Positions 44,862 through 62,539 of a stretch of DNA of 64,000 nucleotides are shown here, piece after piece. This DNA comes from Pirellula sp. (GTDB taxonomy: Bacteria > Planctomycetota > Planctomycetia > Pirellulales > PNKZ01), in assembly GCA_013822735.1 (NCBI GenBank), contig PNKZ01000004.1, positions 186,001 through 250,000 of the forward strand, read 5' to 3'. A model generated the notes under the pieces. It searched no databases, had not been told where the DNA came from, and worked only from the letters and a program-made list of their open reading frames with translations. Within the stretch, counting starts at the first letter, position 1. Each line of letters opens with the position of its first letter. Made by a program: the position numbers and the translations under genes.

Positions 44862-45093
44862 AATCGCTCCTTTTGCCTAGTCAGGTTGCGTCGTACGATC
44901 AATGCATGCAGCGTGCCAATCGTTTCGGCTTGACGTTGCGATTTGTCATGCCCTGCAATTTCTTGGATTTCCGACGGCAACGACCGAGGTGGTGCGGTAG
45001 CGTGGCGAACAGTTGGGATTGAGAATGGTCAATCATTAACCGGAGCGATAACGTGGCTTGAGGCGACGTGAGACACAGAAGGGAGAGAGCAAC

Positions 45094-46227
45094 TTGGCCG
45101 CAGCATCGAAAGGCGTAAGCAACTACAAGGCGCGAAAGCTGCGCTTCTACCATGTTCGGAATTGGCTCGGCATGCCGCTTTCCGTTTGGCTGCCGCTGCT
45201 TGCGCGAAATCACTTCGCGGCGACACGCATCGGCCAGCTGTTCCGAATGATGCTGTTCGCCACCGGCAACTCCCTGATGCATCGTGCGGATCAGTTGATC
45301 TATTCACGACGAGTGCGGCGAGCGCCGGAGCCGGAGCCGCCGTTGTTCGTCGTCGGCCATTGGCGGACCGGAACGACCATGCTGCACGAGTTACTCGTGC
45401 AAGACGAGCAATTCGCTTTCCCGACCACGTATCAGGTGATGGGGCCGCATCATTTTCTGTTGAGCGAGCGGTTCGTTCCCAAGCTAATGGCCCACGCCAT
45501 GCCCGAGCGGCGTCCGATGGATAACATGGTCGTCGGGTTCGATAAGCCGCAAGAGGATGAGTTTGCTTTGTGCAATTTGGGACTGCGGTCGCCCTATTTG
45601 AAATGGGCCTTTCCTCGGCACTACGCCGAGCCGGGACTCTATCTCGATGTCGATGCGTGGGACGAAGTCGAGCGACGACGCTGGACCGAAGGCATGGTGT
45701 GGTTCATGCGCCGCTTGGCATGGCGCGACCGACGACGCATGGTGTTGAAATCGCCGACGCACACGGCCCGACTAACAACGCTCTCCGTCGCATTTCCTGG
45801 CGCACAATTTATTCATATCGTGCGCGATCCCTACACCGTCTTTGCTTCCACAGTGCATACCTGGAAGCAACTCTGGGAGTCGCTGGCGTTTCATTCGCCG
45901 AACTTCGACGGGATTGAAGAGTATGTGTTGGCGACATTCGAGAAGATGTATTCCAGCTTCGAGAGGGCACGACCGACGCTTCCTCCCGATCAGCTCTATG
46001 AGCTACGTTACGAAGACCTCGTGCGCGAGCCGGTCGCAGAAATGGAGAAGGTCTACGAACGTCTCGGGTTGAAGAACTTCACGGCGGCACGGCCGAAGCT
46101 CGAGGCATATTTCGCCTCACGCCGCGACTACCGCACCAATCGCCACGAAATCTCCGACGATTTGCGAGCGGCCATTGCGAAACGCTGGGGCGGGTACATG
46201 CGGCAATACGGCTATGAGTCCCCGTAA
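45094..46227 (+). CDS. PAPS-dependent sulfotransferase
   Basis: About 377 residues from TTG 45094, chosen because GGGAGAG lies about 5 bases before it; a TTG at 45058 is in frame but lacks one. The 5'-phosphosulfate loop is FVVGHWRTGTTMLHELL, and the 3'-phosphate-binding segment is FIHIVRDPYTVFASTVHTWK, with YELRYEDLVREP later. It moves sulfate from PAPS to a sugar, lipid or protein acceptor. It is placed between two sulfatases, so sulfate may be both added and removed from polymers in this locus; which acceptor is used is unknown. Confidence 0.9.
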   Translation: MAAASKGVSNYKARKLRFYHVRNWLGMPLSVWLPLLARNHFAATRIGQLFRMMLFATGNSLMHRADQLIYSRRVRRAPEPEPPLFVVGHWRTGTTMLHELLVQDEQFAFPTTYQVMGPHHFLLSERFVPKLMAHAMPERRPMDNMVVGFDKPQEDEFALCNLGLRSPYLKWAFPRHYAEPGLYLDVDAWDEVERRRWTEGMVWFMRRLAWRDRRRMVLKSPTHTARLTTLSVAFPGAQFIHIVRDPYTVFASTVHTWKQLWESLAFHSPNFDGIEEYVLATFEKMYSSFERARPTLPPDQLYELRYEDLVREPVAEMEKVYERLGLKNFTAARPKLEAYFASRRDYRTNRHEISDDLRAAIAKRWGGYMRQYGYESP

Positions 46228-46260
46228 ACACCACGACGACTCGTGACAATGTCTGGACGA

Positions 46261-47772
46261 CTATTTCAATGTTGCCGGTTCGATGCCGGGAATCGTCAGC
46301 GGAAACACGCTATTCGCGACCACTTCGCGACGAAGCACTTCCTCAGCTTGCTGCACGACCTCGGGTCGCGAATTGGCGAGATCGTGCTGTTCGCCGCGGT
46401 CGTTGTCGAGATCGTAAACCTCCCACGGTCCAGCCGATTTCGTTTTAAGCCCCTGGCGGACGACCTTCAGCGATCCGAAACGAACGGCAACCTGTCCGCC
46501 ATATTCCGGGAAGACCCACACCATCGGCTTCCGGTCCTCCAAAGTTGGACTTTTGCCGAGGAGCACCGGCCAGAGACTTTCGCCGTCGAGTCCTGCCGGC
46601 TTCGGCAATCCGACGGCATCGCAGAGCGTGGGAAACCAATCGGCGAAGTAGCTCGGCGTGTCGTTCACCGCCCCTGCCGGAATCAATCCCGGCAGTTTCG
46701 CGATCATCGGCACTCGGATTCCTCCTTCGTAAACGCTGCCCTTGTAGCCTCGCAGGTCGGCCGTGCTCTGAAAGAAGGCCGTATCGGCCCCGCCGATATG
46801 GAATCGCGGATCAGCTTTACCACCGTGCGTGGCGCCATTGTCGCTCGAAAAGACGACGAGAGTCCGCTCCGCCACCCCGGCCTTGTCAAGCGCCGCAAGT
46901 ACGCGCCCGACGTAACCATCGAGATCGCTAATCATCGCCGCGTACGCGGCGCGCGGGCGAGGGTGCGGGAGATAACCATTGTCGCCGCGATACACTTCCT
47001 GATCCCACTCGATCGGAAACCGGTCCACCGACGCTCGCGGCGGATGCATGGCGACGTGCGGTTCCGTAAACGGCAGATAAAGGAAAAACGGCTTTGTTGC
47101 GTGCTCGGCAACGAACTTCTCCGCTTCCGCAATGAGCAGGGTCGGCGCGTACGTTTCGCCGATCCAATCCTCCAGTTTCACTTCCCCTTCGGCTTGCTTG
47201 GCGGCGCCCGGTATCGGCCGGCGATTGATGATTATCTTCTCCGCATTGCGCCAGAGATGCGGCGGGTAGAAACTGTGCGCGACCGATTGGCAGTTGTAGC
47301 CGAAGAACAGGTCAAAGCCCTTTCGATTCGGGTCGCCACTGCTGCCGACCGGCCCCAGCCCCCACTTGCCCATTGCACCGGTCGCATAGCCTGCGGCTTG
47401 AAGCAATTGAGGAAATGTTTGCGCCGCGGCCGTCAAAGGATACTGGCCCTCGGTAAACTGCGGCAGGCGCTGTTTGGCCGGAAGGTTACCGCGGATCTCC
47501 GCGTGGCCGAGGTGCTTTCCCGTCATCAGTACACAACGCGAGGGAGCGCAGACGGGAGCTCCGCTATAGTGCTGTGTGAAGCGCATTCCTTCCGACGCGA
47601 GTCGATCGATATTGGGCGTGGGAATCTTTTGCTGACCGTAACACCCAAGCTCGGCCCAACCCAAATCATCCGCCAAAATGAAGACGATGTTCAGCGTCGG
47701 AGCATCGTTCGCCTGTGCGATGGCGGGCGATGCGAGTAACGCGGTAAGGAAATAAAAGAAGAAGTATTTCAT
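46261..47772 (-). CDS. Secreted arylsulfatase-type sulfatase (second of two)
   Basis: 503 residues with a signal peptide (about 1-22). The active site is CAPSRCVLMTGKHLGHAEI with Cys75 for formylglycine, and the full metal pair is kept (ILADDLGWAELGCYG, Asp35 and Asp36). Further landmarks are GKWGLGPVGSSGDPNRKGF, EPHVAMHPP, and VVFSSDNGATHGG. Close to planctomycete arylsulfatase A-type proteins for sulfated glycans. It converges with the sulfotransferase, 33 bases apart, and is divergent from the caspase-like gene. Confidence 0.95.
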   Translation of the reverse strand: MKYFFFYFLTALLASPAIAQANDAPTLNIVFILADDLGWAELGCYGQQKIPTPNIDRLASEGMRFTQHYSGAPVCAPSRCVLMTGKHLGHAEIRGNLPAKQRLPQFTEGQYPLTAAAQTFPQLLQAAGYATGAMGKWGLGPVGSSGDPNRKGFDLFFGYNCQSVAHSFYPPHLWRNAEKIIINRRPIPGAAKQAEGEVKLEDWIGETYAPTLLIAEAEKFVAEHATKPFFLYLPFTEPHVAMHPPRASVDRFPIEWDQEVYRGDNGYLPHPRPRAAYAAMISDLDGYVGRVLAALDKAGVAERTLVVFSSDNGATHGGKADPRFHIGGADTAFFQSTADLRGYKGSVYEGGIRVPMIAKLPGLIPAGAVNDTPSYFADWFPTLCDAVGLPKPAGLDGESLWPVLLGKSPTLEDRKPMVWVFPEYGGQVAVRFGSLKVVRQGLKTKSAGPWEVYDLDNDRGEQHDLANSRPEVVQQAEEVLRREVVANSVFPLTIPGIEPATLK

Positions 47773-47931
47773 AAGTGTTCCGACGACGGATGGGAGAGGC
47801 GACTTCAGACAATTCTCTCAGAACGGAGAGTCTCGGCAAATTGCGCGCGCTTTGTTTGCAACGAGACGTCAGCAACATGATAATCGCGGAGTGCATACAT
47901 TGTCTAAATTAGCGTTGTCGTAAGGATCAAG

Positions 47932-50151
47932 ATGCGGATTGCGCGTTCCCGCCGGTTGCCTGTTGGCGCACTGGGGGCGTTACTCGTGCCCATGCTGCTT
48001 GTGATGCGAGCGTCCGTCGACGCGGAAGAGCCGAGCCCTCCTTCGCGCTACGCGCTGCTCGTCGGATGTACCGAGTATTCCGAACTAGGCCCCGATTATC
48101 GGTTGCAAGGACCGGATAATGACGTCGGGTTGATCCACCGGATGTTGCGCGAGCGATTTCAGTTCCAGGACACCGACATTGTGCATTTGGTTGCCGCGCA
48201 ACCGCCGATGTTGCGACCAACCCGCATAAACATTCTTCGCGAACTGGAACGCCTCACTGAGCGAATTCGGGACGGCGATCAGGTTGTGCTTTTGCTCGCC
48301 GGCCACGGAAGCCAACTTCCCGACTACGATGGGGACGAAGATGACGGCTTCGACGAAGTATTTCTACCGGAAGATACGCCTAGGAGCGCCAACGCGGGCA
48401 ACGTCGAGCGGGGGATTACAGATGACGCCCTGGCAAGCTTCTTTGGGCAATGGCGGCAAAAAGGAGCGAACGTTCTTTTCCTAGCCGATACGTGCCATTC
48501 CGGAACCATGTCTCGCGGCTGGGACAATGCAGATCGCACGCGAGGCGTAAGGCATGTTCCCGCCGATGTTCTATCGTCGCCCGATTTGGTACGCGACGCC
48601 GAACGGAAAGCTCGCGAACAGCTGGCGAACTCCGCCACCGCGAAGAAAGAGCACGACGAAACACGGCAGGACGATCTCCGCGGCGGTTTGACGGCGCTAT
48701 TTGCGGTGCCGCCGACGGCGTTGGAACAAGAGCATCCGATGCCTCCGCCCAATTGCGCCGCCGACGCTGCGCGTTTCGGGCGTTTGACCTATGCATTGCA
48801 TCAAGTGTTGGCGACGGCGCAAACACCGCTGACGCACCGCGAACTCGGCCAAGCATTGGCGCGGCAGTACCGCGATTGGGCGTGGTTCCCGTTGCCTGAA
48901 ATGGAAACGACGTACCTGGATAAGGAAGTGCTTGGAAAACGCACCTGGAATGATCGTTCGGCACTTCAATTCTCTCGGGCTTCCGACGGCACGTTGGAAC
49001 TCAATCAAGGGCTCGTTCACGGGCTGTCCCCGGGAACGATCGTGCGAATCCTGCCGGACTCGAGCCACATCGTCGATCCGAATGCCGTACAGGCGCAGCG
49101 GTACGTGACCGTCGCGCGCGCGACTCCCCTGAACGCCGTTGTCGAGCCTATTGCATTCGACGGCGCGTCGGCGGTTTCACCGGCGGATGTCCGAACTCCC
49201 GCTTCCTGCGAAATCGCGCAATTAGACTACGGCCCCCTGAAGCTCTCCGTGCGAGCGATTGCTTTGCACGAACATGATCCGAATGCGCCGAAGGTCGATG
49301 CATCGCAAGTTCAACGATTACGAACTACCGTTTCTGAGCTGGCAACTGCCAAGGAAGCGTTAGTTCGCGAAGCCGGTCCCAATGAATTGGCCGACGTACT
49401 GCTCATCGCCGGACCGCGCGGCATCGCCATGCGATTACGAGACGAGGAACGTTCGCCGCTCACCGCCAATGAAGTACGTACGGACCTATTTGGCCCCTAT
49501 TCGGTTGATGACACATTATCCGTAGCGCTCGCACGTGATTTGCGGCAAATTGCGGTGGCTGAAAACCTTCGTCGCCTCGCAGTCGACGGGCGACCGCAGA
49601 ATGTGTCGAAGCGTGACAAAGCGAGCGTACACGTTGATTGGCGTTTGGCGCGGGGCCATACGACAAAGGGACCGTGGACGCCGCTCTCCGACGGCGATGA
49701 ACGTCGCTTCACGCGCGGGGACGTTCTGCGCCTCACTCTGCAAAACGTCGGAACAACGCCGGCCGACGTCACGGTGCTCTACCTCGACGCCGCAAGGCAG
49801 ATTCAAAGCCAATACCCTTCGTTGCGGGCGTCTCAAGCCGGCGCGTACAACACTCTGTCGCCCGGCGCAATCCACGAACTTACCATCAAGATCAACGACG
49901 GCACCGTCGGCGCAGAAGACATTCTGATCGTTTCCGTTCTACACACGCCGCCGCTTTCGGTGAACTTCGCGTTCCTACAGCAGCCGGGCCTAACTCCTGC
50001 CGACCTTCGGCAAGTACGAGGCGAAAGCACGTCTCCGCTCGATGCTTTGCTGGAAGCGTCGTTATCGGGCACTCGCGGAACCCGCCGGACGAACATGGCC
50101 CGTCCCTTTACGCTACAACGCATCCGTCTCGACGTTTTTCGCTCACCTTAA
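47932..50151 (+). CDS. Exported caspase-family (C14) protease with large C-terminal domain
   Basis: 739 residues with a signal peptide or anchor (residues about 10-31). The caspase fold shows RYALLVGCTEYSELGPDYR, then the catalytic His125 in VVLLLAGHGSQLP and Cys188 in VLFLADTCHSGTMSRG. An acidic run DYDGDEDDGFDE follows the His, as in metacaspases. After residue about 350 comes a long beta-rich region. Near residue 620 it has VTVLYLDAARQIQSQYPS and LTIKINDGTVGAEDILIVSV, like the DUF4384 domains that accompany caspase-like proteins. It probably cuts proteins after basic residues, in the periplasm. It is the first of five plus-strand genes that end at 57108. Confidence 0.85.
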   Translation: MRIARSRRLPVGALGALLVPMLLVMRASVDAEEPSPPSRYALLVGCTEYSELGPDYRLQGPDNDVGLIHRMLRERFQFQDTDIVHLVAAQPPMLRPTRINILRELERLTERIRDGDQVVLLLAGHGSQLPDYDGDEDDGFDEVFLPEDTPRSANAGNVERGITDDALASFFGQWRQKGANVLFLADTCHSGTMSRGWDNADRTRGVRHVPADVLSSPDLVRDAERKAREQLANSATAKKEHDETRQDDLRGGLTALFAVPPTALEQEHPMPPPNCAADAARFGRLTYALHQVLATAQTPLTHRELGQALARQYRDWAWFPLPEMETTYLDKEVLGKRTWNDRSALQFSRASDGTLELNQGLVHGLSPGTIVRILPDSSHIVDPNAVQAQRYVTVARATPLNAVVEPIAFDGASAVSPADVRTPASCEIAQLDYGPLKLSVRAIALHEHDPNAPKVDASQVQRLRTTVSELATAKEALVREAGPNELADVLLIAGPRGIAMRLRDEERSPLTANEVRTDLFGPYSVDDTLSVALARDLRQIAVAENLRRLAVDGRPQNVSKRDKASVHVDWRLARGHTTKGPWTPLSDGDERRFTRGDVLRLTLQNVGTTPADVTVLYLDAARQIQSQYPSLRASQAGAYNTLSPGAIHELTIKINDGTVGAEDILIVSVLHTPPLSVNFAFLQQPGLTPADLRQVRGESTSPLDALLEASLSGTRGTRRTNMARPFTLQRIRLDVFRSP

Positions 50152-50288
50152 TCGCACATGATGCGAACGGTTCCTTTTTCGTCGGCTTGATTGTTTGCGG
50201 CATGAATTCCCTCCAACTACAATGAGGGGGCCAATCGGAGCTTTGCGGCGGCGTCGCGGCTCCTCATGCCCGCAACTTGAGCCACAAC

Positions 50289-52241
50289 ATGAGAACTGAA
50301 CCTCGTAATGCGCGACGTTTCCAACGTCCGCGATTTGCCCTTCTCGGCGTGTCTGTACTTCTTTTCGCAAGCCTATCTTGGGCACTTGCCGCCCATGAAG
50401 CACTGCGTGCGCACCAGGCTGCCGAAGGAAAATCTGGAAAGCTCCCTCCGAGCAACCGAGAATCGCTGCCCCGTAATGCAAAATCGGCCTTACACCTGTC
50501 GCCCGAAATCGCAGCTTGGGCGCAAGCGCTTCGAGGGCGTTTCGTTGCTGTCGACGATAACGCGCTACGGAAGATGCGCAGTGACGCAAAGACGGCGCTG
50601 GCCCAATTGCGATCAATAACCAATCCGTTGCCCGACGGAGCTGTGTGGGCCAAGACGTGGAACCTTGCAGGGCTGGAGACTTTTCTTAACACCGAGAAGC
50701 CGACGGAAGCCGCAGCCTTGAGTGCTAAGGAAGCTCTTTCAGTCGCCGCTCCGGCGGCGCTCGAGCCTAGTCGCCGATTGCTGGCGCATCGCCTTGGCGC
50801 ATTTGTCGACGCACGTTTTTGGTCACCGTCGGATGCCGACGCAGTTGCACGTCAAATCAATACGCTCGCCGAGGCCGCGCAACTGCATGGTTCGAACAAC
50901 GTCACTCAGAAGATCGAAGCGGCCGCCAGAGACGCGTTCGCCGCACTATCGGCCCGACGACGGGGCTTAGACTTACTTGTCGCATATCGCGCCGAACATT
51001 CAACTTTCAACTTTCGCAATCGCGTCGGCGCCGATTACGTCAGTGCGCAGTCGAAGCGGCAGTTCCAACTTCCGGTCGACTATCGTACGTCGACCGGCGG
51101 AATCAACGTCCATGTGCATGGCACCGCCGTCGCAGATGCAACGGCGCAAGTTGTGCCCAATCCGGAGCGCGCCGAGGTCCGCGTCGATGTGCAATCTGTC
51201 GGCAAATTTACCGTCGACGGCTCGAAGGGGCGCGTGCGGTTACAGGCGGCGAGCACGCAACGACTCCAGTCGACGCAGCCTTTGTTCATCGACGCAGGCA
51301 AGATCGATTCGCCGGGAGCCCGCATCTGCGATCGCAGCTGCACAAAACTAAATTGTCTCTCTGTTTGTATGCGACTACCGCTCGCCGAACGCGTTGCGGC
51401 AGCCGTGGCTTCGCGCATTGCCGCCAAGAAGCTCGCTGAGCACGACCCGGAGATTGCTCGCCAAGTGGAGAAACGCGTGCGTGAGCGTGTGGAAGACGAA
51501 GCATACGACATTACCTATCGCATCAACGGCGGCTTCGGCAAGCTTGCCTCCGGTTTCTTTCCGGCCGACGGCGAGGCGCAACGCCTGACCGTTCATAGCG
51601 ACTCCGACGCGATTCATTGGCAGGCGATGTACGTCGATGACGACGAATTGGGAGCCTTGGCCCCGCCCCGTTTTGAACAGCCGGCCGTCGACCTTGATGT
51701 GCAAACCTGGCTTCACGAATCGGCGATCAACAATTGGGGCTCGCGGCTGAGCGGAAAAATGCTCGACGAAGCGACCTTTTGGAAGGTCCTTTCCGACGAG
51801 TTCAAGCTACAGAGTTCGGTCGTGGAGAAGCTGCCCCCCTTGCGTTCCGCTTCGGTCCTTCGATTTTCCTCCGCCGATCCGCTGACGATGCGTTTTGAAC
51901 GCGGTGAAGTCGTCATTACGCTCGGGTTGCAGGGTTACATGCTGGACAATCGTCCAACTTGGAATACTCCGCGCAAGGCCACGGCCCGGTATCGTCTACA
52001 GCCCGGCCCAAGCGGCATGCAGTTTCGACGCGCCTCGGCCGACTTTGAAGAAGACTCCGCCTGGCAAGCGGTACTCGACCGCTTTCTTCCGATTACGTTC
52101 GAACCGAAGCCTCGCTTTCAGAATTCAAGCTTTAAAGATCGGCTGACCGTTCGCAACCTTTCCATTGCCGACGGCTGGCTCTTCATCGGTACCGTTCGCA
52201 CTTCGAAACTACCGTCCACATCGGCGGTCGCACAGGAGTAA
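50289..52241 (+). CDS. Unknown exported protein with Cys cluster
   Basis: About 650 residues from ATG 50289 (TTG 50277 is also in frame). An N-terminal hydrophobic segment (FALLGVSVLLFASLSWALA) is a signal or anchor. Residues about 40-240 are helical; about 240-360 beta-rich (GGINVHVHGTAVADATAQVV). Four cysteines at 347, 351, 356 and 360 (CDRSCTKLNCLSVC) could bind a metal or form disulfides. A Lys/Arg/Glu helix follows (ARQVEKRVRERVEDEAYDIT), then more beta-rich sequence. No family recognised. Its stop is 7 bases before the patatin-like gene, so they are co-transcribed; the first caspase gene lies 137 bases upstream. Confidence 0.8.
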   Translation: MRTEPRNARRFQRPRFALLGVSVLLFASLSWALAAHEALRAHQAAEGKSGKLPPSNRESLPRNAKSALHLSPEIAAWAQALRGRFVAVDDNALRKMRSDAKTALAQLRSITNPLPDGAVWAKTWNLAGLETFLNTEKPTEAAALSAKEALSVAAPAALEPSRRLLAHRLGAFVDARFWSPSDADAVARQINTLAEAAQLHGSNNVTQKIEAAARDAFAALSARRRGLDLLVAYRAEHSTFNFRNRVGADYVSAQSKRQFQLPVDYRTSTGGINVHVHGTAVADATAQVVPNPERAEVRVDVQSVGKFTVDGSKGRVRLQAASTQRLQSTQPLFIDAGKIDSPGARICDRSCTKLNCLSVCMRLPLAERVAAAVASRIAAKKLAEHDPEIARQVEKRVRERVEDEAYDITYRINGGFGKLASGFFPADGEAQRLTVHSDSDAIHWQAMYVDDDELGALAPPRFEQPAVDLDVQTWLHESAINNWGSRLSGKMLDEATFWKVLSDEFKLQSSVVEKLPPLRSASVLRFSSADPLTMRFERGEVVITLGLQGYMLDNRPTWNTPRKATARYRLQPGPSGMQFRRASADFEEDSAWQAVLDRFLPITFEPKPRFQNSSFKDRLTVRNLSIADGWLFIGTVRTSKLPSTSAVAQE

Positions 52242-52248
52242 ACCGCCC

Positions 52249-53733
52249 ATGATGTTCGCTCGTGCAGGTAGCTGCCATCCTTTCCTACTGTTCGCCTCGG
52301 TGCTGCTTCTTGGGGCGGCAACACTTCCGACGGCCGCCGCGCCGCCATCAGGCCTTTCCGTCGAGGAACGCCGTCGCTTTGCCGACGCGCAGCTGATGTT
52401 CTGCTTCCAAGGAAAGGGCTCGTGCCTCCCCTACGATGCCGGAGTGCTTCACGAGGCGTATTCACGACTCCCTGCGCTCCGCGAAAATCGCGTAATCATC
52501 GCGGGCAACAGCAGCGGCTCTATCGCCGCAGCTTATTTCGCATGCTTCGGGTTTAGCGATGCGACGGTTAAGCATGCCGTCACCCGACTTACGGAAGGAA
52601 ACCGCGACGCCGTGCGGAATATGGAGAACCCGCATTCCAAACTGTCGAAATCTATTCGCGGCAAGCCGACGGAGATTTCGCACGAGAACCTCCGTGAATA
52701 CATCGCCTTCGCGTTGGGTGTCGAGCGCTGGCAAGATGCGAAGTCGCTCGACGAAATCGTGGCCCGCAGCACGGCCAAGCCGCGCTACCCGATCATCATC
52801 GTCAGCTGCAACAAAGAAGTTCTGGAAGATGCCGATGCGAGCGACGGCCGTGCGTCGTCGCGCTACAAGGAGTTCGATCTCAATACGCTCACGGCCTCCT
52901 GGCGTCCCGAGGTTCACGAATTCTATCGGGCGCATCCCGAGCGTTTCGCGTCCGACCACCCCGACCTCGTTCTTTCCGACGATCGTCGGATCGGCCGCGG
53001 CGTAACATATTTCGTCGACCGCACGATGTACGCTCTTCTCAGTCAAATTCCTCCCGAGGAACGGCAAGCCGATTTGCGGCTAATTGAAACTGCCGCCGAC
53101 GTCGCCCTGGCGATCAAAGCGTCCGTCTCCGAGCCTACCTACTTCGCGCCCGTTCCCGAGTTGCAACCCGATCGCTTGCTCGTCGATAGCCGGCAGGGCG
53201 ACCTCGGCAATGTTCGCAAGCGCACTTATTACGGCGGATATATCGTTGCCGTGCCGTCACAAGACGTCCGCCGGATGTTGCCGGGCGTGCGTGTTTTCGG
53301 CACGGGCTTCCGGCATTTCGCATTGCTGTCTCGCTCGACGGTCCGTGATTGGCTATTGGCCGATGTCGAGCTCGTGGCGCAGCGAACCGAGTGGTGGGCC
53401 GACCTGGAAACCTACCCCGATGCCGAGATGGAAAGCCACATGGATTTTCGCGATCTTACGGCGCAGCAGGAATTTGAATTCGGACGTCGTCGCGCCGTGG
53501 AATGCTTCGCAGGCCATGCCGGTTTGCCGAAATTCGTCGCCCGCCCGAAATTCGATTACCCCGCGGCGGCCGCGATCATGCCCGCATACGCGGCAGATGA
53601 CATGTTCGAGAAGCCGGAGGCCCCTGCGATCGCTCAGAAAAGCGGCAAGTCCGGCGACGTACCCGCCCGGCAGCCGCTAAAATCCAACCGAGGTCTCGGG
53701 CCGCTCCTCACGGAACCTCGCCACGTGCCATAG
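52249..53733 (+). CDS. Exported patatin-like protein, apparent loss of catalytic Asp
   Basis: About 494 residues from ATG 52249 (GGAG at 52235-52238). A signal peptide (about 1-31) precedes a patatin-like domain: MFCFQGKGSCLPYDAGVL where the oxyanion loop should lie, then the Gly-X-Ser-X-Gly elbow IIAGNSSGSIAAAYFA with Ser88. The second catalytic residue, an Asp in a DGG/DGA turn, seems to be replaced: the segment that best aligns is RTYYGGYIVAV with Tyr328. Lipase activity is therefore doubtful, or another acid is used. The C-terminal 100 residues are Ala/Pro-rich and unlike the family. It lies in an operon with two caspase-like proteases and a HEAT-hydrolase. Confidence 0.75.
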   Translation: MMFARAGSCHPFLLFASVLLLGAATLPTAAAPPSGLSVEERRRFADAQLMFCFQGKGSCLPYDAGVLHEAYSRLPALRENRVIIAGNSSGSIAAAYFACFGFSDATVKHAVTRLTEGNRDAVRNMENPHSKLSKSIRGKPTEISHENLREYIAFALGVERWQDAKSLDEIVARSTAKPRYPIIIVSCNKEVLEDADASDGRASSRYKEFDLNTLTASWRPEVHEFYRAHPERFASDHPDLVLSDDRRIGRGVTYFVDRTMYALLSQIPPEERQADLRLIETAADVALAIKASVSEPTYFAPVPELQPDRLLVDSRQGDLGNVRKRTYYGGYIVAVPSQDVRRMLPGVRVFGTGFRHFALLSRSTVRDWLLADVELVAQRTEWWADLETYPDAEMESHMDFRDLTAQQEFEFGRRRAVECFAGHAGLPKFVARPKFDYPAAAAIMPAYAADDMFEKPEAPAIAQKSGKSGDVPARQPLKSNRGLGPLLTEPRHVP

Positions 53734-53793
53734 GCTCATGAACGCGCACGAAGCAGCGCCGTGCGAGTTATGTTCGACGTCAGGAAGGCTTCG

Positions 53794-54915
53794 ATGAACC
53801 GCCGGACCACCATACTTGTCACACTTCTTGGCGCGGCTCTATTGTTGTCGCCCAACTTCGCGGCCGCGCAGAATATTCACGCGATTATAGTCGCCGATAC
53901 GTCGCCGGCGGCAGGCTGGGGCATCTATCAGCCGAACGTGGAATTCGATGTGGTCCACATGCAGGGCTTCTTCGAGCAGAATGCTCCGGCCGACGCGCTC
54001 GTGCTGACGCGACATACGCTCGATACGAACGAGCAAGCGTCGCCGGCACGTATACTCGCACTGCTGGGAGCATTGAAGCCCGCGCCGAGAGATACCGTCG
54101 TACTCTACTATTCCGGGCACGGCGGCATCGACGATCGCGGGAGCTATTTCGAACTCGTCGGCGGCAAGCTCTATCGCGATGAGGTCTGCACCCAACTCAA
54201 AGCCAAGGGAGCTCGCCTCGCCGTGTTGCTGAGCGATTGTTGTAATTCGCGGAGCGACGGTCGTGCGCAGACCGCTCCCCGCGCCATTTTTCGCCGGCCG
54301 GAAACGTTCACGCCGTTGTTCCGGTCGCTCTTCGTGCAGCCCGACGGTTTCGTCGACGTTACGGCATGCGCGCCCGGTCAGAGCGCCTTTTTTTCCCCGC
54401 CGCCGACAGATGGCGACTCGGTCCCCGGTTCGCTCTTCACCAAGGCGCTGGCCGCTTGGACGGAAGAACATGCCGAGCGCGAGGCGACATGGGATGAGTT
54501 GGTAAACGACGTCGGCATCGAGGTGCATCTAGCTTTTGGCGAAGCATATCCGCAGGGAGCGACATTTGCCAAAGGCGCTCCCGTGCAGACCGACCAGAAT
54601 GTTTTTGCGCGCGAATACCCCGGCATGCCGCCGGAGCGCGGCCCACGTATCGGGATTGCCGTTCGCGACGACGAAGGCGCCGTGAAAATTGTCGAAGTCG
54701 TTCCCAATTCACCCGCCTGCCGCGCGTTCAATCTCGAAACGGAAGCGTACGTGCCGTTAGTCGTCGGCGGTCGCGTCACAATGATTAACGGCAATCCAAT
54801 CGCCGACAGTCAGGCGTTTACTACCGCTATCAAAGAATCCACCCCAATTATCCGGCTCACGATTGCCAATCCTGGCGCCGATCCGCAAGAATTTCTCGTT
54901 CGACTGCGTTACTAG
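53794..54915 (+). CDS. Exported caspase-family protease with C-terminal PDZ-like domain
   Basis: About 373 residues from ATG 53794, supported by AGGAAGG 5 bases upstream; ATG 53770 and GTG 53761 are in frame. A signal peptide ends near AAAQN. Caspase landmarks: VVHMQGFFEQN, catalytic His109 in VVLYYSGHGGIDDRG, and the Cys pair 149-150 in VLLSDCCNSRSD. Residues about 285-373 look like a PDZ domain (VRDDEGAVKIVEVVPNSPACRAF, GGRVTMINGNPIADSQAF). PDZ domains bind exposed C-termini, so this may direct the protease to substrates. Third gene of the tight row starting at 50289; the HEAT-hydrolase follows after 12 bases. Confidence 0.85.
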   Translation: MNRRTTILVTLLGAALLLSPNFAAAQNIHAIIVADTSPAAGWGIYQPNVEFDVVHMQGFFEQNAPADALVLTRHTLDTNEQASPARILALLGALKPAPRDTVVLYYSGHGGIDDRGSYFELVGGKLYRDEVCTQLKAKGARLAVLLSDCCNSRSDGRAQTAPRAIFRRPETFTPLFRSLFVQPDGFVDVTACAPGQSAFFSPPPTDGDSVPGSLFTKALAAWTEEHAEREATWDELVNDVGIEVHLAFGEAYPQGATFAKGAPVQTDQNVFAREYPGMPPERGPRIGIAVRDDEGAVKIVEVVPNSPACRAFNLETEAYVPLVVGGRVTMINGNPIADSQAFTTAIKESTPIIRLTIANPGADPQEFLVRLRY

Positions 54916-54927
54916 GAGACCGTTTGC

Positions 54928-57108
54928 ATGACGCCGCCCACCGTTAATCGAGCCGTCGCAACCAAAACGTCCGCGCCACGGATCTCGTCGGTATGGTTGC
55001 CTCTCCTGGCTCTGGCAGTATTCGCGTCAACCGACAACGTCGCAGGACAATCGCCGGCGGACGATGCATCGTCCGGGCCCGCTACGTCTGCCGCTCCCTC
55101 GTCTACCACCCCGCCGCGGATCAAGGCGAATCCCGACGTTGTCACCGACGATTGGGCCGCGCAAGTCCTCCGGAGCGACCCCCTCACCAAGCTGCCTCGA
55201 CCGACAATCGCCGACCTTCGCAAGGCCCTGGCCGATCCGAAGCAGGCAGATCACGTGTTGCCGCGTCACTTCGTTCGCGCGCAACTTCCTGCAACGGAGC
55301 AGACGGAATTACTGCGTGAAGCGCTGCGTCATACGTCGCTCGAGGTTCGACGACAGGCGGCCCACGAGCTACAGCGGCAAGGCCTGCTGGAAGAAGCGGT
55401 GGGCGCGCAGCTCGTGGAATTCGCAATTCGCAAGGACTCCAAAGACGATTTCACGGCGGTCATTGCGTTGCAAGACGTGATACTGCCGTGGTCGCAAGTC
55501 TCCGAAGCCTACTGGCAGGAAATCTTGCGAGCGCTCGCTTCGGAGAATAGCGGCGCATCCTTTGCGGCGTCGAGGCAATTGAGTCGCTGGGGCGCCGACG
55601 CCGTTCCCCGCCTGCTGGATGCTGCGAAATCGGACGACAAGTCGCTTCGCAACGCCGCGATTCGCGCCTTGGCGGAGATCGTCGGCACGGCGCGCGCCCT
55701 CGAGGCTCCGTCGGGAGTCCTCTTGCCCACGTACGGCGCGGCGGCCGAGACGCGACGGGTTGAACCCGCCGGCGGATCCGCGCCGCCGCCGGCCGTGGTT
55801 GCTAAATCAATGCCTGTCGTTCGCACGGAGGTTCATCAGGATCGCATGCTCGATCACAAGCATCCGAATTCCGTGCGAGTCTATTACGGAACGAATCGGG
55901 AAGTGCTTAAGACGGTCCCGGAACCCGGCTATCTGTTGTACGGATTGCCAATTGTTCTGCTCTTCGTAATTTGCATGGCGTTTCGCGGTATTCGCAAACG
56001 ATTGGCCGGCAAGACTGTGTGGGGAGCGATCATGTCGCTATTTATTGTTACGGCGACCGTCGGAGCGAGCGCCTGGATCGTGCTAGTCTGGAATCAAGAA
56101 TATCGCTCTGCCTACACGGAGACCGTCGGCGTTACGTACGGAGCGCATCGTGAAAAGGACGGCGGCGTTCACTACGGCTATTGCGACGTCTCGATTCCGC
56201 CGACGCACTCCGTGGGAGAGATCGAACGGCCGCTGCTCGGCGGCGAAGACGAAGCGCAGCACGTGATGTTGCGTCGCAATGAAGAATTGAAGGAAGACGC
56301 GTTCTTTAAGGAAGTGCGGCAGGTTTTGGCCGAACGCGCGGCCGACGAACGCAACTGCTTTATCTTCGTGCACGGCTACAACGTCACGTTTGAAAAGGCG
56401 GCAATGCGCACCGCGCAGATTCACTACGACCTCAACTTCCGCGGCGTGCCGATGTTCTACAGCTGGCCTTCGCGCGCCAACGTACGCAGCTATTTTTCCG
56501 ATCGCAACGAGATCTTTTATAGCTACGAACACATCATGCGCTTTCTCTTGGCCACGGCCGAACGCGTCGACGCCAAACGCGTGCACGTGATCGCCCATAG
56601 CATGGGAGCCGACGCCGTGAGTCGGGCCATTCTGGCCATGGGCGACCGCGGCAAAATCTTCGATCAAATCATCCTAGCGGCGCCGGATATCGACGCCGAC
56701 GTGTTCCGCGACCAAGTTCAGCCGCGGATGCAGCAACTCGCCAATCGCACGACGCTTTATTGCTCGCGGAACGATTGGGCGCTGCACGCGTCCTACGCCT
56801 TCAACGATAGCGTACGTCTCGGCGATTCCAGTCGCAGCATCTTCGTCGCCGACGGCATGGATACCGTTGATGCTTCGGATATCGACACCGATCTACTGGG
56901 CCATTCTTATTATGGCGACTGCCTCAAGTTGCTGAACGACGTTCAATTGGTGATCGAAAAGAATCTGCCTCCCCTCGAACGCCGGCTTACTTCGCGCGAC
57001 AGGGAGAAACTGAAGTACTGGACCTTCATGGAAGATCTCCCGAAGCCGAAGCCGACGACGGCCGCGGATGCAATACCGACGCCGTCACCGACCTCGACGA
57101 AGCCGTGA
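54928..57108 (+). CDS. HEAT-repeat, two-TM protein with DUF900-type alpha/beta hydrolase domain
   Basis: 726 residues. After a signal peptide or anchor, residues about 110-260 are HEAT-like helical repeats (LEVRRQAAHELQRQGLLEEAV, DKSLRNAAIRALAEIVG). Two membrane spans follow at about 334-352 (YLLYGLPIVLLFVICMAF) and 364-390 (MSLFIVTATVGASAWIVLVW). The C-terminal half is a DUF900 hydrolase: NCFIFVHGYNVTFEKAA with the oxyanion HGYN at 482-485, MFYSWPSRA, and HVIAHSMGADAVSRA with Ser558. DUF900 members are esterase-like with little-known substrates. Likely topology places the HEAT and hydrolase domains on the same side of the membrane. Last of the five-gene row; it ends one base from the kinase gene on the other strand. 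Confidence 0.85.
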   Translation: MTPPTVNRAVATKTSAPRISSVWLPLLALAVFASTDNVAGQSPADDASSGPATSAAPSSTTPPRIKANPDVVTDDWAAQVLRSDPLTKLPRPTIADLRKALADPKQADHVLPRHFVRAQLPATEQTELLREALRHTSLEVRRQAAHELQRQGLLEEAVGAQLVEFAIRKDSKDDFTAVIALQDVILPWSQVSEAYWQEILRALASENSGASFAASRQLSRWGADAVPRLLDAAKSDDKSLRNAAIRALAEIVGTARALEAPSGVLLPTYGAAAETRRVEPAGGSAPPPAVVAKSMPVVRTEVHQDRMLDHKHPNSVRVYYGTNREVLKTVPEPGYLLYGLPIVLLFVICMAFRGIRKRLAGKTVWGAIMSLFIVTATVGASAWIVLVWNQEYRSAYTETVGVTYGAHREKDGGVHYGYCDVSIPPTHSVGEIERPLLGGEDEAQHVMLRRNEELKEDAFFKEVRQVLAERAADERNCFIFVHGYNVTFEKAAMRTAQIHYDLNFRGVPMFYSWPSRANVRSYFSDRNEIFYSYEHIMRFLLATAERVDAKRVHVIAHSMGADAVSRAILAMGDRGKIFDQIILAAPDIDADVFRDQVQPRMQQLANRTTLYCSRNDWALHASYAFNDSVRLGDSSRSIFVADGMDTVDASDIDTDLLGHSYYGDCLKLLNDVQLVIEKNLPPLERRLTSRDREKLKYWTFMEDLPKPKPTTAADAIPTPSPTSTKP

Positions 57109-57109
57109 G

Positions 57110-59896
57110 TTACTTTCCCTCGGCGACGTTTTTCGCTCCTCCGGTCTTGAGCGCGGCAAGCCGTTGCGTGTAGCTCATTACGAGTTCGGCGTCGAGTAGC
57201 GTGGGGTTGGCCTCCATGATCTCCAGTTGCTTTTGTAAGGCGCTCGTGAGCATCGGTCCGCCGCCGCCCGATTGCGAAATGAAGCTTTCGATCGCTTGCT
57301 TGAGATCCGCGAAGGCACCGGCCTGATCCTTGAGCGTCAGCTTGGAATTGCCCCGCACGAAGTAGGCCGTCGCGTTGTCAGGCTGCAAATCGATCGCCTT
57401 GCCGGCGTCGCTCACGGCCTCTCGGTACTGCTTCAACTCATAGTGCGCCGTGGCGCGATTCAGATAGGCCGAAGCGTTCTTATCGTCGAGGCTCAGCACG
57501 TCGTCGTACTCCGCGAGCGCCGTGCGCCAGTCGCCCTGCCGGCCGTAGCAGAAGGCGCGGCCCAGGCGAGCATCAATGTGACGAACGTCCAACTCCTTCA
57601 CGACGGTGTTGAAATCAACCAGTGCCGAACCGAAGTCTTGCTCCGACAAGTAGGCATCGCCGCGCTTCACGTACGCTTCGGCCGTTACGCTCCGCAAGCC
57701 TTTGGGATCGACCGAGGGAACTTCCTGCAATTCTTTCGCCGCGATCAACACCGCGGAAATCTCGCGCACCGTTTTGGCCTTCTTCAGTTGTTCGCGGAGT
57801 CGTGCTAAGAGGTCGGCGACACGGAAGCTCACGCCGAACGAAGCCTTCGCGGTGAGCGGCGGCGTGCCGGAATCCTTCACCTCAAAGGAGATCGTCACCG
57901 GCTTGGCGGAAAGGTCCTTGCCGATATCCGGCGAGTACGTGATGCGGCCCGTTTTAGTATCGAGCTTCACTCCGTCCGGAACGGGAGCGGCAAGCGCTAT
58001 GTGCATCTTACTGCCGGGGGCGGCATCCGGGTCCCGCGCCTTCACGGTCAATGTAAGAGCCGGCCCATCCGTCTCCAGCGGCAGCGTCACGATCTGATCG
58101 GGGATGGCCGCGATCACCGGCGGTTTGTTCTCGGCGGCGATATCGAACTCCACTTCGGTTTCGGCCGATAGCGAGGGCGTTCCATCGTCGGCGACGGAAA
58201 GTTTCATCTTCGTCGCCTTGCCGGCGAACAAGCTGCTCGGCGTCCAAGTTAATTCTCCCGTCGCGGCATCCAACACGGCTCCCTCCGGCAGCGAACTTGC
58301 CTTGGCTACGGCAAAGCGAAGTTTTTGCGCGGGAAGATCCGCATCCGTCGCCTGCAATTTTACGCGCAGGGCGCCGTCAACACGGCCGGCCACTCGAGCA
58401 ACTGGCTGCAGCACCGGCGCCGCATTCACCTCCGTGACGTTCACCTCCAACGCCTGTTCCGAAGAGAGGGGCGGCGTGGCATCATCACTCGCGCCGATGC
58501 GCACCTTAAACTTTCCCGGACCTTGGCTTTCGCTCGGCGTCCAAACCAGCGCGCCGGTCTTCGCATCAAGCGTCATGCCGGTCGGACCTTCAATCAGATT
58601 CAACTTCAGGCGCTCGCGCGGCGTCGCATCATCTTTTACGTCGATCGGCAACTTCCAAGCCGCCGATTCAGGGATCGCGCTGCTCGCGGCGGTCGACGTA
58701 GCAAGAAACTTCGGAGCTTGATTGGGAGGCACGACCGGTTCCGGCGGCTTCTTCGGCGGAACATCCGCCGGCTTTTCGGCGACATCTCCGGGCGCAGGCG
58801 CCCCGGGTTCTTCCGGAATCAGGAAGATGCCGACCGCCGCAACGGCGAACAGCGCCGCGACGATCATCGCTTTGCGGCTTTTCTTCTTCTCATTCACCTT
58901 GGGCTTTGCCGCAGCGGCGTTCGTACGCGATGCGGCCCCTTTTGCAGCCGGAGGAGGAGCGGAAGCCCCGGCCACAGTTGCGGTGTCGTACTTGGAAGCA
59001 GGATCAAAGACGCGATTAACGCCGCCGACGAGCTCTGCTCCTCCTCCTGCAGCACTACCGGTCACGCCGATTTCCGGAGCAACGATCGGCACCAGCGGCG
59101 ACGGCGATAGATCGCGGAGCGCCTCCTCCGCCGTCAGATAGCGATCCCCTGCTTTCTTTTTGAGCAATCGGTCGAGAACCATCGCCAATTCCAGCGACGC
59201 GCCGGGAACGAGCTCTGCGGTGCCCGGCAGTTTCGTTTCTTCACCTGCATGCCAACGCATCCAGGCCGTGCGGCTCTCCTGCTCGTTGCCGCCGACGCCC
59301 GGAAAGAGTCCGTCGAATTTCGGGCCCAACAACAGTTCCAGCACGCTGAATCCGAGCGTGTACAGATCGGCCGCCGGTCCGTATTCGCCGAACGCAGGGC
59401 TCACCGCTTCCGGCGCCACGTACTTCATGAGCCGCTTCTGATACGGCAATCCGCCGACGACCGCGGCTCCGACGGAGAAGCTCAGCTTGATTCGGCCGGC
59501 TCGATTGAGCAGCAACGAATGTGGACGGATGTCGCCGTGTGTTCGTTTCTGCTCATGCAGACGCTGCAGACCCGCAAGACCTTGGCGAAGCACGGAACGG
59601 GCCGCCTCCGGGTCGAGCGGACTTTTGAGCAGTTGTGCGCAATGACCGCACATCAACTCCATCACGATCCATCCTTGCGCGCGATCGACTGCAAAGACCG
59701 GCACCAGCCGATCGTCGGTCAGTTGGGCGAGGAAGGTGATTTCATCCCAGAAGCGCGGAGAGCGCTCCGCCTCTTTGCGCAGCGACGGGTCTAATTGAAA
59801 GATCGCCACTTCTCGCTTGAGCGAGAACTGCACGCCGCGGTAGACGGTTCCGTAGGCATTCTGCCCGAGCGATTCCCAGGTTTCGAAGTCGGCCAT
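57110..59896 (-). CDS. Kinase-like (probable pseudokinase) protein with TM, Ig/cadherin-like and TPR domains
   Basis: 928 residues. Residues 1-265 follow the Ser/Thr kinase plan: glycine loop LGQNAYGTVYRG, catalytic-loop HGDIRPHSLLL (Asp122), YVAPEAVS, ADLYTLGFSVLELLL. But the VAIK lysine is Phe33 (REVAIFQLD) and the DFG motif is absent (RIKLSFSVGAAV, about 136-146), so phosphotransfer is doubtful. A membrane span at 342-361 is followed by three or four putative-Ig/cadherin-like domains (each with the GVKLDTKTGRITYSPD-type ending, about 400-720), and then TPRs (about 760-890, for example ASAYLNRATAHYELKQYREA). It is last in the tad operon, 31 bases after the FHA gene. The TPRs would lie outside the cytoplasm. 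Confidence 0.88.
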   Translation of the reverse strand: MADFETWESLGQNAYGTVYRGVQFSLKREVAIFQLDPSLRKEAERSPRFWDEITFLAQLTDDRLVPVFAVDRAQGWIVMELMCGHCAQLLKSPLDPEAARSVLRQGLAGLQRLHEQKRTHGDIRPHSLLLNRAGRIKLSFSVGAAVVGGLPYQKRLMKYVAPEAVSPAFGEYGPAADLYTLGFSVLELLLGPKFDGLFPGVGGNEQESRTAWMRWHAGEETKLPGTAELVPGASLELAMVLDRLLKKKAGDRYLTAEEALRDLSPSPLVPIVAPEIGVTGSAAGGGAELVGGVNRVFDPASKYDTATVAGASAPPPAAKGAASRTNAAAAKPKVNEKKKSRKAMIVAALFAVAAVGIFLIPEEPGAPAPGDVAEKPADVPPKKPPEPVVPPNQAPKFLATSTAASSAIPESAAWKLPIDVKDDATPRERLKLNLIEGPTGMTLDAKTGALVWTPSESQGPGKFKVRIGASDDATPPLSSEQALEVNVTEVNAAPVLQPVARVAGRVDGALRVKLQATDADLPAQKLRFAVAKASSLPEGAVLDAATGELTWTPSSLFAGKATKMKLSVADDGTPSLSAETEVEFDIAAENKPPVIAAIPDQIVTLPLETDGPALTLTVKARDPDAAPGSKMHIALAAPVPDGVKLDTKTGRITYSPDIGKDLSAKPVTISFEVKDSGTPPLTAKASFGVSFRVADLLARLREQLKKAKTVREISAVLIAAKELQEVPSVDPKGLRSVTAEAYVKRGDAYLSEQDFGSALVDFNTVVKELDVRHIDARLGRAFCYGRQGDWRTALAEYDDVLSLDDKNASAYLNRATAHYELKQYREAVSDAGKAIDLQPDNATAYFVRGNSKLTLKDQAGAFADLKQAIESFISQSGGGGPMLTSALQKQLEIMEANPTLLDAELVMSYTQRLAALKTGGAKNVAEGK

Positions 59897-59927
59897 GGTT
59901 TCCGTCCTCGTGAGCCGGGCCTGTTGT

Positions 59928-60728
59928 TCAGTAGGCCCCGGGCGTGATTTGTTGTGTTACGAACGATTCGGCCTCCAGCAATGCATCCGGTACCGGACGC
60001 CCCTGCGTGAGGAGTTGATTTTTTTCCCAAACGATCCGATCGCGAAGCCGGCGATAACCGGCCGCGGAACGAACCTCATCGCCCCGATAGGCGTCGGCGT
60101 ATGACTTGCTCAGTTGAATCCATAGGTCAGGAGCGCAATTCGGATCCTTTTGCAACAAGGAAACCACCTCGGAGAACGGCGCGGGAGCTTTTTCCTCCCC
60201 TGCAGCGGGCCCAGAAGGAAGGAATTCGTCGGAAAACAGGATCAAAACGGCGGCAACGGCGAATACCAAGCCCGCAATAATCGCACCGGTGTTCGACTTT
60301 TCTGGTTTCGGTTCCGATGGACTTCCGCCGCCGATCGCCACGTCGTCCGGCGATGCGCCGGCGACAGGTACTGCCTCGCGAACCGGCTGCGGATCCGCCG
60401 GCAACGGACGTCGGGTTGGAGCGCCGTCGCCCGAGGTTTCGAGTTTCAACGCCGAGCCGTTGGGGAATCGAAGCGTCTTGCCCGACCGCCACACGCCGCT
60501 TTCGCTGGGAGCGAGCGTGACGGCGTCAAGTTGCAATGGCGCCGAACTGCGGTTGAAGACGGTGTATCGTCCGTCGCCGTAACGCACTGTGAGTGCATGC
60601 GGCTCAACTCCGGAATCGGCCAGCACGAGTTCGCAACTCGGGTCGCTTCCGAAGCGCAACACTTCGTACTCGACCCATAGTTCCGAGCCGGCTTCCGCCC
60701 CTTCGACGACAATGAGTTTTGCAGGCAT
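59928..60728 (-). CDS. FHA-like domain membrane protein with altered phosphopeptide site
   Basis: 266 residues. Residues about 1-95 look like an FHA domain: VLRFGSDPSCELVLADSG, then VEPHALTVRYGDGRYTVFNR. Where active FHA domains have Gly-Arg and Ser-Arg-His, this has Gly27-Ser28 and Glu42-Pro43-His44; Asn59 is kept. The canonical phosphothreonine contacts thus seem lost. A membrane span follows (IIAGLVFAVAAVLILF, about 140-160). The C-terminal part (LWIQLSKSYADAYRGDEVRS) is helical. It lies 6 bases after tadC and 31 before the kinase gene, so it is part of the Tad operon. Confidence 0.75.
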   Translation of the reverse strand: MPAKLIVVEGAEAGSELWVEYEVLRFGSDPSCELVLADSGVEPHALTVRYGDGRYTVFNRSSAPLQLDAVTLAPSESGVWRSGKTLRFPNGSALKLETSGDGAPTRRPLPADPQPVREAVPVAGASPDDVAIGGGSPSEPKPEKSNTGAIIAGLVFAVAAVLILFSDEFLPSGPAAGEEKAPAPFSEVVSLLQKDPNCAPDLWIQLSKSYADAYRGDEVRSAAGYRRLRDRIVWEKNQLLTQGRPVPDALLEAESFVTQQITPGAY

Positions 60729-60734
60729 GAGTTA

Positions 60735-61634
60735 TTAAATTCCCAGCGCGCCCAAGATAAATGGCGCACCGATAATGATCAGGCAGGCGATCATGATCAC
60801 CATGCCCGGAAGGACGATATTCACTTGCGCCGTACCGGCGGCTTTTTCGGCCCATTGCGAACGTTTGAGCCGCATCTGTTCCGCTTGTAATCGGAACGTC
60901 TGCGCCATCGGAGTGCCGAACTCGTTTCCTTTGTTCACCATGAAGACAAGTTCTGCCACGTCGTCGTCGGGCACTCGCTGTTGGAAGCGTTGCAGACTTT
61001 CGTTCAGCGGACGGCCGAGATTGATCTCGCTGACGATGATCGAAAGCTCGTCTCCCAGCGGATGGCCGCGCAGGTCGCGCACCAGGGTATTTAAGCCGTC
61101 CATGAGCCCCCCGCCGGCCTCGAGCATGAGCGCCATCAAGTCGACGGCGAACGGCAACCGTCGCTTGACGAGCGACGTTCGGCTCTCGGCCTTCTTCGCC
61201 ACACTGCTCACGGCGTTGTACTGCAGAAAGGCGGTGGCGGCGACGGCAAGCACCACGCCAAGCCCGGGCCCACCCATCAGAAAGCCGAGCATGAATCCAA
61301 TGCCGCCGCCGATCAATCCTTCCACGAGCTTCACGGCGAGAAACTCCTCCGGCTTCCACGGCAACGGTTCGCCCGCGGAAACGAGCTGCGTCGCCAGCTT
61401 CGGAAGTTTACCGCCGCGGCGATACCATTGCGACAATTCGTCGACGATCGGTTCGAACCAGCGGTAGGCGGAGTTTCCCTTACGCAAGGCGATCCGTCGC
61501 GACGCTTCAAACTCCCACGTAGCCGCCGTTTTCGGCAAAGGCCGATTTACGGAACGTTGGATCCATGCGGTGAGCGCAGCCGTTCCGAGCCCGGCAAAGG
61601 TACTGGCGGCGAGAAGTAATTGGGCTCGTTCCAT
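60735..61634 (-). CDS. tadC: Tad-type inner-membrane platform protein TadC (T2SS F family)
   Basis: 299 residues of the type II secretion F family. The core helical segment is RRLPFAVDLMALMLEAGGGLMDG, with EINLGRPLNESLQRFQQRV and VNKGNEFGTPMAQTFRLQAEQMR, then a closing membrane pair (VNIVLPGMVIMIACLIII). Extra hydrophobic segments lie at residues about 5-25 and 110-140. With TadB it forms the platform that the TadA ATPase acts on to extend a fine pilus or secrete proteins. Spaced 21 bases from tadB and 6 from the FHA gene. Confidence 0.9.
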   Translation of the reverse strand: MERAQLLLAASTFAGLGTAALTAWIQRSVNRPLPKTAATWEFEASRRIALRKGNSAYRWFEPIVDELSQWYRRGGKLPKLATQLVSAGEPLPWKPEEFLAVKLVEGLIGGGIGFMLGFLMGGPGLGVVLAVAATAFLQYNAVSSVAKKAESRTSLVKRRLPFAVDLMALMLEAGGGLMDGLNTLVRDLRGHPLGDELSIIVSEINLGRPLNESLQRFQQRVPDDDVAELVFMVNKGNEFGTPMAQTFRLQAEQMRLKRSQWAEKAAGTAQVNIVLPGMVIMIACLIIIGAPFILGALGI

Positions 61635-61655
61635 GTTGATATGACGCTGGTTCCG

Positions 61656-62510
61656 CTAAACGTCCAAACTCAAGATGCGATTAGCCCACCGCACGGCGGC
61701 ATACACGATGACGATCACAAAGACGAGGACGACCTGGCCGAGGATCGTCGTAAATAAGAGCGCGGTCCCCTCAGGATTCAAAAAGTAGAACAAGCCGAGA
61801 AACACCGCCGGAAACGCCGCGAGCATCACGACGACCTTGCGACCGCTTTCAGTATCCGCTTCGAGCTTACGTTCGAGGCGTTGATTCTCCTGCAAGCTCC
61901 GACTAATCCGTTCGAGCGCGTCAGTAATCCTCCCGCCACGCTCTAAGCTGACCAAAAGCGCCGAAGTGAACAATGTGAAGCCGTCGAGCTTCAGGCGGTC
62001 GCGGGCTTGAATCAGCGCCTCGGAAAGGGGTCGGCCGCCGCGATAGTCGCGCACGATGCGATGCAGCTCCGTCGCCAACGGCTCGGGCGTTTCTTGCGCG
62101 ACGTTCTCGATGCCCTGGGCCAACGAAAGCCCGGCACGCGTGGCGTTGGCGAGCGCCGTCACGGTGCCGACCAATTGATCGCGCAGCAACTTGCTGCGCC
62201 GATGGATCATGAGATGCAAGTAGAGCTTCGGCGCGACGTACACCAGATACACCGCGGCAAAGGCGACGGGCCACATCCCGAGGCCGATCGAAAACAGTAC
62301 GAACACCGCGGCCATCGCAATGCCCCACCAGCGCATCAGCTCCGGCATGCGATCGCTTCCGAGGCTCAGCGCATCAAGCATCGGCCGCACCTCGGCGACG
62401 TAGCGTACGGCCAAGCGATCCCAAAGCGGCATCACCAGTTGCACGACGTAAAACGCCGTCGCGCCGATGGCGATGCTCGAAGCGAAAAGTAGGATAGGTG
62501 CCAAATCCAT
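61656..62510 (-). CDS. tadB: Tad-type inner-membrane platform protein TadB (T2SS F family)
   Basis: 284 residues from ATG 62510; an upstream in-frame ATG would overlap tadA. T2SS F features: LVGTVTALANATRAGLSLAQG, EAQIENVA-like EGIENVAQETPEPLATELHR, GRPLSEALIQARDRL, LVSLERGGRITDALERISRS, LEADTESGRKVVVMLAAFPA and a hydrophobic C-terminus. It lies 29 bases after tadA and is one of the two platform components. Hydrophobic N-terminal spans begin at residue 2. Confidence 0.9.
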   Translation of the reverse strand: MDLAPILLFASSIAIGATAFYVVQLVMPLWDRLAVRYVAEVRPMLDALSLGSDRMPELMRWWGIAMAAVFVLFSIGLGMWPVAFAAVYLVYVAPKLYLHLMIHRRSKLLRDQLVGTVTALANATRAGLSLAQGIENVAQETPEPLATELHRIVRDYRGGRPLSEALIQARDRLKLDGFTLFTSALLVSLERGGRITDALERISRSLQENQRLERKLEADTESGRKVVVMLAAFPAVFLGLFYFLNPEGTALLFTTILGQVVLVFVIVIVYAAVRWANRILSLDV

Positions 62511-62539
62511 GATGTCGAACGATCGGCGCTCACGCAGAC

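Follow-up and report, generated by a model that had tools for sequence, protein, structure and literature searches.

An exported caspase, patatin-fold and predicted BPI/CETP-type gene cluster in Pirellula, with a proposed role in envelope lipid handling

Gene content of the cluster

The window analyzed here is a stretch of 64,000 nucleotides from Pirellula sp. Positions 47932-57108 hold five intact and closely packed open reading frames, A to E, all on the plus strand, as an initial annotation made from the letters alone had reported. Gene A (47932..50151) encodes an exported C14 caspase-family protease with a long C-terminal region (Pfam Peptidase_C14, 3.2e-15). Gene B (50277..52241) encodes an exported protein to which AlphaFold2, Foldseek and VIA assign a predicted BPI/LBP/CETP-type TULIP fold. 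The product of gene C (52249..53733) is an exported patatin-fold protein, recognized from its predicted model and from a Pfam Patatin match (7.6e-6) slightly below the gathering cut-off. Gene D (53794..54915) encodes a second exported caspase-family protease, which ends in a PDZ domain (C14, 2.1e-7; PDZ_2, 9e-6). Gene E (54928..57108) encodes a signal peptide, HEAT repeats (HEAT_2, 6e-8), two transmembrane helices and a DUF900 alpha/beta hydrolase domain (1.7e-46). These Pfam matches agree with the domains first proposed for A, C, D and E.

The A-B gap of 125 bases (50152..50276) is the place that, in two congeners, holds X, a gene for a TPR-CHAT protease. The remaining gaps of 7 (B-C), 60 (C-D) and 12 bases (D-E) are as originally given, when the starts of C and D are taken as 52249 and 53794, respectively. 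The divergent intergenic region 5' of A (47773..47931) has promoter-like matches on both strands, by consensus only, and a promoter and terminator scan, which was not informative, found no clear terminator between the cluster genes. Sulfotransferase-like and sulfatase-like genes adjoin the cluster at 45058-47772. Downstream, on the minus strand (57110-64000), are genes for Ser/Thr kinase-Ig-TPR, FHA, TadC/TadB-like and CpaF-like proteins. This Tad/kinase operon was considered as part of the system and rejected, as in congeners it is conserved away from the cluster, on other contigs.

Both A and D belong to caspase family C14, having the domain together with the His/Cys dyad. The dyad of A (His in GHGSQ, Cys in DTCHSG) is intact in all four homologues, and in D the His and the CC pair are invariant over 13 rows. 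The Ser, Asp and His motifs of E are retained in nearly all of its homologues; E is predicted to span the membrane two times, with a short inter-TM loop that is strongly basic in this genus. For A to E and X alike, almost all full-length homologues in other genomes have an export-type hydrophobic segment at the N-terminus, as called by a hydropathy heuristic rather than SignalP; this upholds the earlier view that all five cluster products carry export signals or anchors. The genome itself, 99%-complete, has two C14 caspases, one PF01734 match and one DUF900 match, these being the only matches detected genome-wide, and every one of them lies inside the cluster.

Predicted folds of B and C

BPI and CETP are human lipid-binding immune proteins. 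The AlphaFold2 model of B (pLDDT 80, pTM 0.71) comprises a helical N-domain, residues 76-241 or thereabouts, and a predicted two-domain TULIP fold, residues 242-644. Foldseek matches the model to CETP with an E-value of 4.2e-12 and to BPI with 1.4e-11, the CETP, BPI and LBP matches spanning 4e-12 to 1e-9, and VIA gives Z-scores of 13.6 for BPI (rmsd 7.4 over 341 residues) and 11.8 for CETP. The two TULIP domains adopt the boomerang arrangement in the predicted model, and B is accordingly predicted to be a two-domain lipid-binding protein of the BPI/LBP/CETP (TULIP) fold. This link rests on the predicted fold, because none was found at the sequence level: Pfam has no family for the 13 members of the B alignment tested, and a profile search against PDB sequences returned no BPI match for B. 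A Cys cluster had been put forward as the hallmark of B, but these cysteines are not conserved across the family; they are incidental and do not define it.

Bacterial relatives of BPI have been described before. DUF4403 is a predicted bacterial full-length BPI homologue (PMC6791001), and bacterial structures cluster with human BPI in a structure-clustering study (PMC10584675). Assignment of B to DUF4403 (PF14356), or to any other Pfam family, was rejected, as none of the aligned B sequences matches; a DUF4403 family search over the relatives found none, with its controls also silent. B resembles BPI, LBP, CETP and the bacterial TULIP proteins (DUF4403, YceB, P47/OrfX2) in its two TULIP domains and their predicted BPI/CETP arrangement, but differs from them in having no Pfam family, an extra helical N-domain and an adjoining or fused patatin-fold partner. 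Gasdermin matches to the B model are weak (Foldseek E 0.01-0.2), and B and C, the proteins that the models cover, model as TULIP and patatin.

The model of C (pLDDT 74, pTM 0.79) shows a patatin fold whose nearest matches are CapV and CapE: the VIA Z-scores are 17.7 for CapV, 17.3 for CapE and 15.5 for patatin, over 237-258 residues at an rmsd of 3.7-4.5. As with B, no sequence-level link to the solved patatins was found, and the relationship is drawn from the predicted fold. All 18 sequences of C that cover the site have GNSSG, the GxSxG nucleophile serine motif, and the FQGKGS loop is retained in the window protein. The catalytic Asp of the DG[GA] motif, however, is missing from 18 of the 18 sequences covering that site, where Y, T, I, N, V or C precedes GG (Tyr in the window), whereas canonical planctomycete patatins retain VDGG. 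The assignment of the Asp position is a motif comparison, as profile alignment to canonical patatins is reliable at the serine and weak at the Asp. Since the Asp is missing in every sequence, lipid hydrolysis by C is doubtful.

Near the end of C (53680-53733), a L[KR][TS]xRG motif, with small variations, recurs in all complete sequences, while the rest of the tail is variable. The motif could be a protease site or a docking motif. Binding of the C-terminus of C by the PDZ domain of D was considered and dropped, as the tail motif is present also where D is absent.

Recurrence and modular structure

All three congeners searched keep the gene order, with proteins 43-71% identical. In one (G002) the order is A-B-C-D-E, and in the other two (G001 and G003) it is A-X-B-C-D-E, X being an exported TPR-CHAT protease (loci L040/L082 and L041/L083; Pfam CHAT, 8e-57) that retains its protease dyad. 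The B-C-D-E order is also found in about five further genomes from other Pirellulales; the genome-collection scan shows it in the Pirellulales MAGs L088, L091 and L092, with C-D-E in L093. Because proteins this divergent keep their order, and because B-C-D-E recurs further afield, the arrangement is not due to chance. A check of the five-gene order across planctomycete genomes was called for at the outset; it finds the order in congeners and its last four genes more widely, so that neither is the order confined to this genome nor are the neighbors of these genes unrelated in relatives. The genes flanking the cluster do vary between genomes, and no neighbor gene of any kind is shared beside it among the compared loci; the unit is therefore the cluster itself.

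The closest association is that of B with C. Across the 98 relatives and the genome-collection scan, C was found in 18 genomes, and B adjoins it in all of them; an ATGA 4-base overlap occurs at 9 of the 11 B-C junctions read. In one genome (L089), B and C are fused in a single ORF of 1116 aa. Its product still has a hydrophobic segment at the N-terminus, and where the signal peptide of C would be expected there is a short linker rich in proline. Among 392 phylum-wide genomes C is found in the window's own genome only, which suggests that the B-C system does not extend beyond Pirellulales. Within the order, the relatives search finds C in 8 of 98 genomes, and 46 of the 98 have a member of the wider B family.

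D-E adjoins B-C in 11 of the 15 genomes with informative flanks, either collinear or, in two genomes (L085 and L094), convergent. The C tree places the B-C-D-E order in three separate clades, two rows lying on long branches. However, B-C occurs without D-E in L087, G005 and G010 (and in L086 and L090, both short contigs), and in G056 D-E is found with no B-C, so neither arm is strictly tied to the other. A adjoins the cluster in four genomes, all of this genus. The make-up of the system is thus modular, with B-C as the core, D-E as a second module and A and the TPR-CHAT protease as additions found in the genus only.

Such a make-up might also arise if two separate modules merely shared a neighborhood, with B-C serving in outer-membrane lipid transport or metabolism, D-E forming a periplasmic pair for quality control that is unrelated to B-C, and A being a bystander. 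We regard this as somewhat unlikely. The loci with B-C or D-E alone, the restriction of A to one genus and the TPR-CHAT gene that splits A from B in two congeners are all consistent with it. Against it, D-E adjoins B-C in most genomes with informative flanks (11 of 15), whether collinear or convergent, and does so across distinct clades of the C tree, while the genes around the cluster are not conserved.

Several loci have features of their own. An exported TPR-CHAT protease encoded elsewhere on the chromosome of the window genome (L121, 9543-12581, minus strand) is 54% identical to X over 855 residues, and is a possible partner in trans. In one of the convergent arrangements (L085), an ORF for a DUF676/DUF7379-like esterase (11341-12354, minus strand) lies between C and E. 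In G019 the B-C-D-E order is kept with B split across two contigs, and directly upstream of the B fragment is a gene for a giant RHS/He_PIG repeat surface protein of 2518 aa (L045, 1444-9000, minus strand).

Envelope lipids and alternative readings

The cluster probably handles or senses cell-envelope lipids. The initial annotation had suggested a protease-activated lipid or envelope effector pathway; its lipid theme is strengthened by the predicted BPI/CETP fold of B, while its effector part is weakened, as C lacks the usual Asp and a 'lipid effector' cannot be assumed. We tentatively favor, at a little less than an even chance, a reading in which B and C form a lipid-binding complex in the periplasm, coupled to the PDZ-caspase D and the membrane-anchored hydrolase E, for the surveillance or turnover of envelope lipids. 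What is observed in favor of this reading is the gene content, the co-conservation, the export-type segments and the catalytic motifs; the folds of B and C are modeled.

The module would sit in the periplasm, tethered to the inner membrane. There B, tubular and BPI/CETP-like, might take up a lipid, whether LPS, phospholipid or a lipoprotein acyl chain, and pass it to C, its presumed obligate partner, the two being coupled in translation or fused. C would either process the lipid by means that do not need the usual Asp or, as we think likelier, bind it as a sensor or adaptor. The responding arm, acting on or downstream of loaded B-C, would consist of D, a caspase-type protease directed by its PDZ domain, and of E, whose hydrolase would face the periplasm from an anchor in the inner membrane. 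A and the TPR-CHAT protease may be upstream, genus-level additions that add regulation. Here we infer the lipid binding, the transfer to C, the proteolytic activation, the order of events and the direction of signaling. A more specific version, to which we give only a small chance, has B presenting lipid to C as an Asp-less patatin-fold receptor that signals to periplasmic PDZ-caspase and CHAT-type proteases. Such a lipid-sensing, caspase-executed circuit would resemble animal LPS sensing in its logic, with no homology implied.

To our knowledge, caspase-type CHAT systems and CBASS patatin effectors are cytosolic. The cluster could be a periplasmic counterpart of the cytosolic patatin effectors, a form of extracytoplasmic defense or programmed death in which injury to the envelope, by phage entry or a predator, activates the caspases and C or E harms the membrane. 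We consider this distinctly unlikely. It agrees with the CBASS effectors CapV and CapE being the nearest solved folds of C, with the part that caspase-type proteases take in bacterial death systems and with the patchy occurrence within the order (8 of 98 genomes). Against it, the cluster has no cyclase, NTPase or recognized defense gene, PADLOC gives a generic caspase only, C is without its catalytic Asp, the window flanks hold sulfatase, sulfotransferase and Tad genes, and no relative of C was found in viral contigs. C shares its fold and GxSxG serine with CapV, CapE (CBASS) and plant patatin, but differs in being exported, in lacking the Asp and in having no adjoining nucleotide cyclase; none is recognized in the cluster by Pfam, NCBIfam or PADLOC, and the cluster does not class as CBASS.

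Very unlikely, in our judgment, is a secreted system for antagonism or scavenging, in which B would bind foreign LPS and C, E and D would degrade it in the envelopes of other cells. The BPI-type fold of B, the export-type segments on all of the proteins and the RHS-repeat neighbor just upstream of B in G019 are what one might expect of it, but signal peptides alone imply periplasmic export only, E is predicted to be membrane-anchored and the RHS neighbor occurs in one genome only.

Bacterial caspases are mostly discussed as cytosolic enzymes of stress, death or defense. The cluster resembles the bacterial caspase systems (gasdermin-linked, type III-E Craspase, orthocaspases) in the C14 domains of A and D and in the TPR-CHAT protein X of two congeners, but its proteins are exported, their partners are of lipid type and neither gasdermin nor gRAMP is recognized in it. 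In Craspase, TPR-CHAT works with gRAMP/Cas7-11, while X is exported and the cluster contains no recognized gRAMP-like gene. The NTP-dependent conflict systems of multicellular bacteria are likewise protease-armed and multi-gene, and have been reported in planctomycetes as well (PMC7159879), but the present cluster is without an NTPase or regulatory switch, and the text of that paper does not mention patatin or BPI. The first reading of the locus had recognized no described system with this set, and the PADLOC result accords with it. Nor was a published description found in the literature searched, which is weak evidence, subscription papers lying mostly outside it. In our assessment the gene set is new, and the mechanism is a proposal.

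Export signals mark the only two C14 caspases of this genome, and these are linked to a protein of predicted BPI/CETP fold and to its patatin-fold partner. If our reading is correct, it would place caspase function outside the cytosol, provide a BPI-like planctomycete family that lacks annotation, and has members in 46 of 98 order genomes, with a partner, and pose a tractable question as to how planctomycetes handle their envelope lipids.

Other members of the B family (L065-L075 and L080) often adjoin a conserved protein of about 158 aa, with the motif DCLPLRSVGRLDIPxDASP and no Pfam family, and some of these loci are also near a thioredoxin-like protein. This setting is a separate and more widespread context for the B fold.
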